A DNA stretch of 54,622 nt, from NCBI GenBank assembly GCA_014381825.1, contig JACNKX010000060.1:1-54622 (forward strand), given 5' to 3'. Each line of letters opens with the position of its first letter. Position 1 is the first letter of the stretch. Position numbers and translations under genes: made by a program. Shown piece by piece: positions 30,845 to 34,419 of this stretch. This DNA comes from Planctomycetota bacterium (lineage in GTDB: Bacteria > Planctomycetota > Planctomycetia > Pirellulales > Pirellulaceae). Under the pieces are notes generated by a model. It was given only the letters and a program-made list of their open reading frames with translations, ran no database searches and was not told where the DNA came from.

Positions 30845-32122
30845 TTACACGGCTCGTCGCGTCAGCGATTCAGTTTCCGCATGCAGCGGTTGAGGCGCCG
30901 GTGTCATTTCCGCGAGAGAGTTTAAGAACGCCGTCATGTCCTTGCCAACGACGTCGCCGACCAAGCAGTCGATCAACGCCGCACGCTGCTCAGGGAATCT
31001 TTGTGCGAACTTGTGGAAGCTGAACGAGGGATCGTAGAAAGCCCGGATGAGTCGATGGATCACCTCAATACCTTCCCACAACAGCGGCACGAACTTTCCC
31101 AACCGTTCCGCGGAAACGTCGTCGGCTTCCAATGCATCGTGAATACACTGAGCCGCTAGTTCGCCGGATGCTAACGCGAGGAAGAGGCCCGACGAATAGA
31201 TCGGATCGAGGAACCCAGCCGCATCTCCGACCATGACCCAGCCATTGCCGACGACCTGACGATTCAAATAGGCGAGACGACGAAGGCCACGTAACGGGCC
31301 TAGCGGGCCGGCATCGGCTAACCATGACGAAAGCGCCTCACACTGCTCCACTTCGCGCGGAAACACGTCTTCGTACCGGTTGCTGTCCCTAAACAGATAT
31401 TCCGGCGAAGCGACAACGCCAACACTTACCATGTCGTTGGCGAGCGGGATGTACCAGAACCAGCCACGATGCGGAATCATGAACACGGTCGTCTCACCCG
31501 CGTCGATCCCCGTACCACGATGACCGCCCTCGTAGTACGTCCAGATCGAGGCTTTGTCGAGCCCCGGCACGTCGGTCTTCAGATTCAGTTGCTGGCCGAT
31601 GATGGTCGCTCGTCCCGAGGCATCGATGACGACGCGAGCCGCAATGTCTTCCGATTGTTGACCGTCTGATTGGGCTCGCACGCCTACGGCGCCTTCGTCG
31701 TCGAAGATCACGTTGTTCACTTTAGTCGCGGAGCGGATCTCGACGCCAGCATCTCTCGCGTTGTCTTGGCATAACTGGTCAAACTCGCCCCGCTCGACTT
31801 GCCATGTCGTTGCACGTTCGCCTTCGATCGTCTCTGAAAAATAGAACGGTGTCGCATCCTTTCCCGAGGGAGGTATGAAACGCACGCTGTGCTTGACGGG
31901 AAAGTGTGAGGCACGCAGCTTGGGCAGTAGACCCAGGTGATCAAACGTATCGTGCGTGTGCGGGATCAGAGACTCGCCGATGTGATAACGAGGAAAGGTC
32001 GAGCTTTCCAAGACAAGGCAACGGTGGCCTTGCCTTTGTAGCAAAGTCGCCGCGGTCGTTCCGGCAGGGCCGCCACCAATGACAACGACGTCGTAAGATG
32101 ATTTCGATGGTGAGGCGATCAT
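30845..32122 (-). CDS. Geranylgeranyl-reductase/halogenase-like FAD-dependent oxidoreductase
   Basis: The 425-aa protein opens with an FAD-binding Rossmann motif (VVVIGGGPAGTTAA, residues about 10-23), followed by EsSTFPRYHIGESL, the segment typical of the geranylgeranyl reductase/tryptophan halogenase superfamily. A second FAD motif, WVMVGDAAGFLDP, is near residue 293. The halogenase Lys/WxWxIP set is not complete; WFWYIPL near 222 is similar. It could be a reductase of polyprenyl groups or a redox flavoenzyme for a small molecule. AAAGGAG lies eight bases before the ATG. It is the third gene of the radical SAM-selD operon, 32 bp after selD. No selenocysteine or paired cysteine motif is evident in it. 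Confidence 0.82.
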   Translation of the reverse strand: MIASPSKSSYDVVVIGGGPAGTTAATLLQRQGHRCLVLESSTFPRYHIGESLIPHTHDTFDHLGLLPKLRASHFPVKHSVRFIPPSGKDATPFYFSETIEGERATTWQVERGEFDQLCQDNARDAGVEIRSATKVNNVIFDDEGAVGVRAQSDGQQSEDIAARVVIDASGRATIIGQQLNLKTDVPGLDKASIWTYYEGGHRGTGIDAGETTVFMIPHRGWFWYIPLANDMVSVGVVASPEYLFRDSNRYEDVFPREVEQCEALSSWLADAGPLGPLRGLRRLAYLNRQVVGNGWVMVGDAAGFLDPIYSSGLFLALASGELAAQCIHDALEADDVSAERLGKFVPLLWEGIEVIHRLIRAFYDPSFSFHKFAQRFPEQRAALIDCLVGDVVGKDMTAFLNSLAEMTPAPQPLHAETESLTRRAV

Positions 32123-32154: not shown

Positions 32155-33216
32155 TCACGTTCCGCCACGTAGAATCAGCCATTCTGTTTGCCTTGGCAGC
32201 ACGGAACCCACGATGCGCGCGGAGTGCGATCCCGCCGCTTGGACATCGTGGACAACGGAGTCGGCCTTTTCAGCCGGAACGCTGATCAGCAAGCCGCCCG
32301 ATGTTTGCGCGTCGAAAGCAAGTTCCATGCAAACGGCGTCCGGTTTGCCCTCGACCCTCATCAGTGTCTCAGCAAACTGACGGTTCGATGCGCTGGCTCG
32401 AGTCTTGAATCCTTGTTCGACCAACGTTTCAGCACCGGGTAGGATCGGGATATTGTCCAATTCCAACACGACGGTCACGCCACTTGCCTGAGCCATTTCG
32501 GCAGCGTGAATGGCTAATCCGAATCCGGTGATGTCAGTGGCCGCGCGAGCTTCTGCATGACGAGCCGCATCGCGACCGATGACATTCAATTGGATCATGC
32601 TTTCGATTGCGGCGGCCAGAGTCGCATCGGGACAGCGGCCCGCTTTGTAAGCTGTCGTCACGAATCCCGTGCCCAGTGGTTTGGTCAGGACCAAGAGGTC
32701 ACTGGGCCGGGCGTTGCGATTGGTCATCAACTGCTCTGGCGTCACGACGCCGGTGACCGACAAGCCGTACTTGATTTCTGTATCGCGAACGGTGTGGCCG
32801 CCGACGATCACCGCTCCAGCTTGTAGCACTCTCTCCGCGCCACCGCGGAGGATTTCGCCAAGTACGTCGAGTCCGAGTTGATCGTCCGGAAAGCCGACGA
32901 TGTTCAACGCGGTGATGGGATTGCCACCCATCGCATAGATGTCGCTGAGCGAGTTCGTCGCCGCGATCTGTCCGAATACAAAGGGATCGTCAACGAGCGG
33001 TGGAAAGAAGTCTACCGATTGCGCAATCAACAGATCGTCTCGCAGCCGATACACCCCCGCATCGCTGGCACCATCCGCACCGATTAGCAGATTCGGATCA
33101 TCGAATTCCGGCAAGCCGCGCACGACCTGCGCGATCCCAGCGACGGGCAACTTGCCCGCTCACCCAGCACAGCTCGCGTAGTCGACCAGCCGTTTCTTGC
33201 GTCCAAAGAGACTCAT
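32155..33216 (-). CDS. selD: Selenide, water dikinase; selenoprotein with in-frame TGA (Sec19)
   Basis: SelD makes selenophosphate from selenide and ATP for selenocysteine and selenouridine synthesis. From the ATG at 33216 the translation runs MSLFGRKKRLVDY, then ASCAG, TGA, AGK, then continues into the full SelD sequence: DPNLLIG, DAGVYRL, SVDFFPPLVDDPF, IAATNSLSDIYAMGG, GGHTV, KPLGTGF and TDITGFGLAIH. The TGA at 33162-33160 is codon 19 and falls exactly at the catalytic Cys/Sec site, with Lys three residues later as in E. coli Cys17-x-x-Lys20. Total length with Sec is 353 aa, normal for the family. An ordinary ORF caller would start after the TGA at a TTG (33150) and lose the active site. 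The start overlaps the radical SAM stop (ATGA). selA, selB, selC and mnmH are not in this window and must exist elsewhere if Sec is inserted. Confidence 0.9.
33144..33162 (-). promoter_or_regulatory. selD: Candidate SECIS hairpin directly after the Sec UGA
   Basis: One base after the UGA (33162-33160) the mRNA can form CGGGC-AAGUU-GCCCG (33158-33144), a perfect 5-bp stem with a loop containing GU, the feature bacterial SelB recognises in fdhF-type elements. It is closer to the UGA and shorter than the E. coli element, so additional pairing around the UGA may extend it. Assignment rests on position and shape only. Confidence 0.5.
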
Positions 33217-34349
33217 GTTACGCTCAATTCAACTGTTGGAATTTGGCCGGGCTGATACACGCAATCCGGCTCGCCTGCTAATGGATCGCCGGTCACCGCG
33301 TAGGCGCGGCTACGGCTGCCGCCGCAAACATAACGATACTCACAGATGCCACAATCATCGGTGAACTGGTCGGGGTCGCGAAGGGCCAAGAAAGTTGGAT
33401 GGTTCTGATAGATGTCGACTACCGAGTCGTTCGGAAAGCGTCCGCACACCAACGGTAAGAAGCCAGCTGGTAGTATCTCGCCGGTATGGCTGACGAACAT
33501 GATGCCGTTGCCGTCGCGAACGCCCAACGGTGCTCGATGACTGGGCCCGCGCTCGCCGTGGGGCGGAGCGGAATCCTTCCTCACAGTCGGCCCGGCCCGT
33601 GGATTACCGTGGCGCTGCAAGACAAAACGCCGGTAGTGCGGAGCTTCGGTCGTCTTAATGCCGTAGGGCTGTCGACCGGCTTGAATCCATAATCGTTCGA
33701 ATGCTTCTTCGTACTGCTCCGGCGAGATCCGCTCTTCGTCAATCCCACGTCCAACTGGAATCAAGAAGAAGACCGACCACATGGCGATGCCTTGCGTGGA
33801 AAGCAGTGTCGCCATGTCTTCGATCTGGTGGAAGTTGCGCTGCGTGATCGTGGTGTTGATCTGTACGCCAAGACCCAGCTTTCGTGCGTCGATCAACATC
33901 CGTATCGTGCGGTCGAAGCTACCTTCCCAACCACGAAAGGCATCGTGTGTCTTCGTGTCCGGGCCATCCAGACTGATCCCCAACATGCGGACTCCCGCAT
34001 CCTTGGCCTTCTGCAAAGCTTCCTTCGTTGCCAGCGGAGTCGCCGATGGGGTCAATGCGACCTGCAAGCCAGCCGCGACCGCGTGACGAATTAATTCGAA
34101 GATGTCACTCCGCTTCAACGGGTCGCCCCCGGTTAGCACCAAGTTCGGTTTGCGAGGGAATGTTGCGACTTGGTCGATCAATGCCTTCGATTGCTGGGTG
34201 GTCAATTGGTCCGGATGAGCTGTCTCTCGCGCCGAGGCTCGGCAGTGCTTGCACACCAAATCGCACGCGGTCGTCAGTTCGTAGTAGAACATCAGCGGAT
34301 TGATTGCAAAGTCGGCAGGCGTGCATGGCGAATGAAGCATGATTCTCAT
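33213..34349 (-). CDS. Radical SAM/SPASM protein (TIGR04053-like)
   Basis: The 378-aa protein contains the CDLVCKHC cluster motif (CxxxCxxC) for the SAM-cleaving 4Fe-4S centre, LTGGDPLKR, and a C-terminal SPASM-type cysteine set (CGICEYRYVCGGSRSRAYA, then a final Cys in EPDCVY) for an auxiliary cluster. The GNGIMFVSHTGEILPAGFLPL stretch is typical of the TIGR04053 family, which is related to heme d1/heme b maturases (NirJ/AhbC/AhbD). Its product is unknown. The ATG at 34349 is preferred over a TTG at 34367. The stop overlaps the selD start by four bases, giving translational coupling. First gene of the operon, with a promoter-like site just upstream. Confidence 0.88.
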   Translation of the reverse strand: MRIMLHSPCTPADFAINPLMFYYELTTACDLVCKHCRASARETAHPDQLTTQQSKALIDQVATFPRKPNLVLTGGDPLKRSDIFELIRHAVAAGLQVALTPSATPLATKEALQKAKDAGVRMLGISLDGPDTKTHDAFRGWEGSFDRTIRMLIDARKLGLGVQINTTITQRNFHQIEDMATLLSTQGIAMWSVFFLIPVGRGIDEERISPEQYEEAFERLWIQAGRQPYGIKTTEAPHYRRFVLQRHGNPRAGPTVRKDSAPPHGERGPSHRAPLGVRDGNGIMFVSHTGEILPAGFLPLVCGRFPNDSVVDIYQNHPTFLALRDPDQFTDDCGICEYRYVCGGSRSRAYAVTGDPLAGEPDCVYQPGQIPTVELSVT

Positions 34350-34365
34350 GGGCAAAAGTACAATC

Positions 34366-34419
34366 AATGATATCTGGACCTTGACATCTACAATTAAGGT
34401 ACATAACCTAGTTTGTCAA
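34366..34419 (-). promoter_or_regulatory. Promoter-like site of the radical SAM-selD operon
   Basis: Minus strand: TTGACA (34419-34414), a 17-bp spacer, TAATTG (34396-34391), then TAGATGTCAAGGTC and GATATC. The downstream tract and flanks are shared with 30023-30073, so the two form a pair in direct orientation. Predicted start of transcription is around 34384, leaving a 5' leader of about 35 nt. Confidence 0.6.

Follow-up and report, generated by a model that had tools for sequence, protein, structure and literature searches.

We report a selD gene in a planctomycete genome that almost certainly encodes a working selenophosphate synthetase which is itself a selenoprotein, with an in-frame UGA at codon 19 being read as selenocysteine (Sec). 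The gene lies on the reverse strand of the window analysed here, a stretch of 54,622 nucleotides that forms part of contig C135 in an assembly of 9.69 Mb and 238 contigs.

A selD frame with an in-frame UGA at the active site

Translation from the ATG at 33216 yields 353 residues up to the terminal TGA at 32157-32155. Codon 19 is the only internal TGA, as a first-pass annotation made from the sequence alone had proposed. The residue context of codon 19 (...DYASCAG-U-AGKLP...) likewise contains the C-A-G-U-A-G-K flanks described there. The features of the gene are as follows:

32155 to 33216, minus strand: selD, selenide, water dikinase (selenophosphate synthetase), 353 residues with predicted Sec at residue 19; based on translation, TIGR00476, AIRS/AIRS_C and the match to 3u0o
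33160 to 33162, minus strand: in-frame UGA, predicted Sec19; aligned to Cys17 of SelD 3u0o, with TGA at this position in 12 of 12 close homologues
33151 to 33153, minus strand: codon 22, Lys, at +3 from the predicted Sec; aligned to Lys20 of SelD 3u0o

The translated protein scored 351.6 bits against the TIGR00476 equivalog model (cut-off 125), which places it in the SelD family, and a family scan detected both the AIRS and the AIRS_C domain. Residues 9 to 341 could be aligned to the solved SelD structure 3u0o (E 8.1e-63), which we take to be the E. coli enzyme, with the TGA codon opposite Cys17 of the motif AGCGCK and the Lys at +3 opposite Lys20, a residue to which we assume a functional role in SelD. 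This alignment to a Cys-type SelD puts codon 19 on the Cys column, and thus agrees with the earlier suggestion that the Sec sits where SelD proteins carry their catalytic Cys or Sec, followed by Lys at +3. In the relevant section of PMC3956282, Cys17 of SelD is described as the selenide-binding site.

The table-11 list of open reading frames contains only 32155-33150 from a TTG, a 331-aa product without the active-site residue, so that the expected truncation of selD by automated callers at a downstream TTG holds for a plain table-11 call. UGA also serves as an ordinary stop codon here, ending both selD and the gene upstream of it.

Conservation of the UGA in relatives

We searched a set of 60 genomes, own genome included, for SelD homologues, treating matches at 9.7e-9 and weaker as related kinases. 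TGA occupied codon 19 in all 12 homologues with ≥55% identity; an additional TAA counted in one of them (G035) is at codon 352 and is the gene's own end. More distant SelD genes in G011, G024, G026 and G036 also displayed an internal TGA at the equivalent position. The nearest relatives with a named phylum are planctomycetes, i.e., Planctomycetaceae bacterium NP86 (L052, 92%) and Planctomycetota KLAP164 (L054, 84%). In one genome (G057), four SelD genes with an internal TGA were observed (on C21, C1, C97 and C80), one of the window type and the remaining three sharing 43-44% identity with the query, and the TGA position was verified for the C21 and C1 copies.

Codon 19 is TGA alike in the window gene and in its homologues from G018, L053 and G001, and the differences on both sides of it are mostly synonymous: synonymous/nonsynonymous counts for these three relatives were 4/1, 10/0 and 8/0 across the 18 ungapped codons before the UGA, and 84/25, 152/54 and 116/55 across the 329 ungapped codons after it. 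Since the TGA is shared by relatives and change is mostly synonymous on either side of it, a sequencing error is untenable and gene decay is strongly argued against. In close relatives the UGA is thus retained within a frame that shows no other interruption; a decaying selD there is what the first-pass annotation would have counted as evidence against its reading.

For a broader comparison, 31 of 73 loci from a wider homologue list were combined with 28 SelD loci from the own-genome and 60-genome searches, leaving aside L003, L049-L051 and matches lacking a locus. Removal of L052 and L054, which lie on the contigs of L023 and L024, and of the misregistered L070 left the 56 rows that were also used for the recoding test below. 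At the codon-19 position, 27 of these rows had TGA and 29 had Cys, i.e., an in-frame UGA that is conserved among some homologues and replaced by Cys in others. The motif AGUAGK was common to 13 close planctomycete rows; Lys stood at +3 across the aligned rows, for which the script gave preference to registers with Lys in that place.

A probable SECIS element downstream of the UGA

The bacterial SECIS (bSECIS) model given in the section concerned of PMC13188914 specifies an apical loop of 3-9 nt with G in the first two loop positions, an upper stem of 4-16 bp, a distance of 16-37 nt from the UGA, and a minimum free energy ≤ -7.5. Two hairpins downstream of codon 19 were evaluated against it:

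33116 to 33134, minus strand: probable bSECIS with the sequence UCGCGCA-GGUCG-UGCGCGG and an apical loop that starts 32 nt past the UGA; based on folding and the recoding test
33143 to 33159, minus strand: hairpin with a CGGGC-AAGUU-GCCCG core, proposed in the first-pass annotation; stable here and too near the UGA

The hairpin at 33116-33134 has the loop GGUCG and a stem of 6-7 bp, and folds at -10.6 to -10.7 kcal/mol (-10.6 for the 19-mer), within all limits of the model. We compared the fold of each region with 500 synonymous recodings per row. For the 33116-33134 region, which was picked after inspection of the sequences, 13/27 Sec rows and none of 29 Cys rows folded better than their recodings at p ≤ 0.05 (mean z of -1.81 and -0.05, respectively), the 13 comprising only 8/13 planctomycete Sec rows and 5/14 other Sec rows. 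A 5-7-bp stem whose loop includes GU and starts at 31-32 nt was present in 12 of the 13 planctomycete Sec rows, L030 being the one that failed. A looser rule (stem ≥5 bp, GU in the loop) was passed by 12/13 planctomycete Sec, 10/14 other Sec, and 11/29 Cys rows, the latter at scattered positions, and is therefore non-discriminating; the case for a SECIS is built on the comparison with recodings and on hairpin position. Taken together, this suggests that 33116-33134 is probably the recoding signal of selD.

The hairpin put forward earlier, described as beginning one base after the UGA, is indeed present, either in a 5-bp form (33158-33144) or folded with 7 bp (33159-33143), and both its stem and its energy (-10.7 kcal/mol) would pass. 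As a functional SECIS, however, it fails on spacing and in the recoding test: its loop lies 6-7 nt from the UGA, short of the 16-37 nt of the PMC13188914 section, and its region reached p ≤ 0.05 in only 1/27 Sec rows and 0/29 Cys rows (p 0.07 in the window gene itself). It may still play an accessory role.

Sec machinery in the same genome and across 60 genomes

The genome carries the components expected of a Sec-decoding organism. SelA is encoded on C59 (565 bits, above cut-off) with selB adjoining it (352.3 bits, above cut-off), and a tRNA-Sec on C119 scored 67 bits vs a gathering score of 47 and was called by ARAGORN as tRNA-SeC with anticodon tca, so that selA, selB, tRNA-Sec (selC) and selD occur together. 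The search for these genes suggested in the first-pass annotation, which held that their absence would speak against its reading, hence recovered all three above cut-offs. No match to SelU/YbbB (TIGR03167) was obtained in this genome at E ≤ 0.001, i.e., the selenouridine trait was not found.

Across the 60 genomes, tRNA-Sec over the gathering score was detected in 16/16 genomes with a TGA-containing SelD vs 22/44 others. At >60 bits the counts were 16/16 vs 17/44 (Fisher p 1.2e-5, only a guide since the genomes share ancestry and are not independent), with a cut that was set after seeing the list and that excludes five genomes with only 49.9-52.3-bit matches, above the gathering score of 47. 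SelA was above cut-off in 15/16 TGA-SelD genomes vs 24/44 others, and SelB in 13/16 vs 20/44. G026 (78% complete) and G036 (72% complete) had no selB match at 1e-50. In G004 (99% complete), which has a TGA-SelD (C23:34967-36010) and a tRNA-Sec of 65.8 bits, neither selA nor selB was found over its cut-off; a gap in the assembly or something unusual may lie behind this.

When tRNA-Sec was counted at >60 bits, selA, selB and tRNA-Sec were all present in 30 of the 60 genomes, and 29 of these 30 had some SelD; another 20 had none of the three genes, three of them (G049, G051, G052) with a tRNA-Sec match of 49.9-52.3 bits, and SelD was found in 0/20. One genome (G050) was observed to have selA, selB, tRNA-Sec, and a TGA-containing fmdB, yet its SelD matches were no stronger than 2.3e-5, which may reflect an assembly gap.

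Alternative readings of codon 19

Under table 11 the TGA is an internal stop, and it could accordingly be taken as a real one in a selD that is decaying into a pseudogene. However, no other interruption occurs in the frame, the codon is retained in all 12 close homologues, change is mostly synonymous on both sides of it, and the Sec machinery is present, so that we consider decay extremely improbable. A sequencing or assembly error would require a single base, as TGA is one substitution away from the Cys codons TGC and TGT, but the same TGA recurs in genomes from other genera that were deposited separately, which leaves this explanation with a vanishingly small probability. Translation might instead start at the internal TTG (33150), whose frame is the one in the table-11 list, and produce the 331-aa protein lacking the active-site residue. 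Yet codons 1-18 differ mostly synonymously between relatives and supply the N-terminal part of SelD as far as the active site, and we regard such a start, like decay, as having next to no likelihood.

The UGA might also be decoded as something other than Sec, via near-cognate suppression or a reassigned code. Nothing in the own genome favours this; elsewhere, G004 combines a TGA-SelD with undetected selA and selB, possibly through a gap in its assembly. Against it, UGA terminates selD itself and the upstream gene, SelA, SelB and tRNA-Sec are encoded in the own genome, and a SECIS-like hairpin follows the UGA; such decoding thus appears very improbable.

Proposed route of Sec insertion

If codon 19 is decoded as Sec, translation would begin at ATG 33216 and the ribosome would reach the UGA at codon 19. 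The stem-loop at 33116-33134, with its loop from 32 nt downstream, would then recruit SelB with Sec-tRNA(Sec), leading to Sec insertion rather than termination. In the predicted enzyme, Sec19 and Lys22 would act in the conversion of selenide and ATP to selenophosphate. SelA would in turn use the selenophosphate made by SelD to form further Sec-tRNA(Sec), which would go into SelD and, at the least, FmdB. The frame, the place and conservation of the UGA, the hairpin, and the genes for SelA, SelB and tRNA-Sec are seen directly in the sequences, while Sec insertion itself, a function of the hairpin and activity of the enzyme are deduced from them.

A second selenoprotein gene

In search of further selenoproteins, for which an fdhF-type formate dehydrogenase had been suggested as an example, we did identify a second candidate, which was not of that type: fmdB, formylmethanofuran dehydrogenase subunit B (C102:23094-24347; L149, L150), with 500.4 bits on TIGR03129 (cut-off 327.8) and an in-frame TGA in the context SHTSL-U-HGPTEIA. 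A hairpin with a GU loop (GCCGCCC-AGUU-GGGUGGC) lies downstream of this TGA, and the neighbouring genes look like fmdD, fmdA and fmdC, as judged from their translations. Among the matches listed, a TGA within an fmdB match over the cut-off was present in at least 13 of the 60 genomes, all 13 with tRNA-Sec >60 bits. A Sec-containing formate dehydrogenase as companion was discarded: two stronger Fdh-alpha-like frames lack a TGA, and the weak TGA-bearing match on C102 is FmdB.

Gene neighbourhood of selD

Two genes flank selD in the window:

33213 to 34367, minus strand: radical SAM/SPASM protein of the TIGR04053 family, upstream of selD; 438.7 bits vs cut-off 395
30845 to 32122, minus strand: FAD-dependent oxidoreductase/halogenase-like protein, downstream of selD; PF04820, 114.9 bits

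The stop codon of the TIGR04053 gene overlaps the selD start (ATGA). We considered a conserved neighbourhood as a pointer to function and set it aside, as this pairing was found only in the window, G018 and L053. In nine other genomes with upstream DNA present (G001, G006, G035, G057, G044, G009, G038, G029 and G004) the radical SAM gene was not next to selD; G047 was left out of the count, as its contig extends only 237 bases beyond selD on the upstream side. The downstream oxidoreductase gave no tblastn match at 1e-8 near selD in the 32 relative loci searched. Since the radical SAM pairing is local to the nearest relatives, no mechanism was built on it.

A Cys-type SelD fusion in the same genome

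The genome also encodes an oxidoreductase-SelD fusion with Cys at the active site (C45:41297-43513; L143:5298-7514; 739 aa as read). It scored 382.1 bits on TIGR03169 (cut-off 310) and 281.2 on TIGR00476 (cut-off 125), and 448.1 on TIGR04369, below that model's cut-off of 700. Thirty genomes combined selA and selB with a tRNA-Sec >60 bits, and in 13 of them a fusion-type frame was the sole SelD recovered; fusions in relatives were assigned by open-frame length (≥666 aa), and the family scan covered the own fusion only. SelD fusions are predicted to be generally active in the pertinent section of PMC4561486, and the frequency of genomes with a fusion as their only SelD agrees with this prediction. 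The nearest fusion model is named 'fusion_not_SelD' by NCBIfam, yet frames of this type are the sole SelD found in those 13 machinery-bearing genomes.

A SelD that contains Sec depends on its own product, and we infer that the Cys-type fusion could start up the synthesis of the Sec-SelD in this genome. A further division of selenophosphate supply can be imagined, in which the fusion would serve general Sec synthesis and the Sec-SelD, with its start codon overlapping the TIGR04053 stop, would serve a second selenium-dependent process; we consider this very unlikely.

Comparison with known systems

The present analysis corrects the table-11 call, in which selD lacks its active site. It also contributes a clade of Sec-SelD genes from planctomycetes for which there is a clear candidate SECIS, and provides a genome with two SelD types, one of which could prime the other. 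Sec-containing SelD proteins are among the commonest bacterial selenoproteins. According to the part of PMC4561486 dealing with them, Sec occurs in 19% of the SelD genes of the reference set, always in the same position. For planctomycetes, PMC4807772 describes full Sec-insertion gene sets in several members, including the Porphyra isolates P1 and P2, in a passage that does not state whether their SelD has Sec or Cys. In the available sections of the literature on planctomycetes and SelD, supplements aside, Sec use in the phylum is likewise found without a statement on the Sec or Cys nature of its SelD.

As far as that passage of PMC4807772 goes, P1 and P2 differ from the present genome in having a 2-selenouridine synthase, of which none was found here, while P2 resembles it in a Sec-FmdB within an fmdD-fmdB-fmdA-fmdC operon, apparently the same gene order as here. 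The protein encoded on C45, which unlike the window SelD is not a selenoprotein, is alike to the known fusion of an NADH dehydrogenase-like domain and SelD (TIGR03169 plus SelD; TIGR04369). Overall, the window gene is a genuine Sec-SelD, of a kind that is already well known: it belongs to the same family (SPS; TIGR00476) with its predicted Sec at the standard position, and nothing fundamental sets it apart, while its clade is marked by AGUAGK in 13 close planctomycete rows and, in 12 of these 13, by an apical loop that starts at 31-32 nt.
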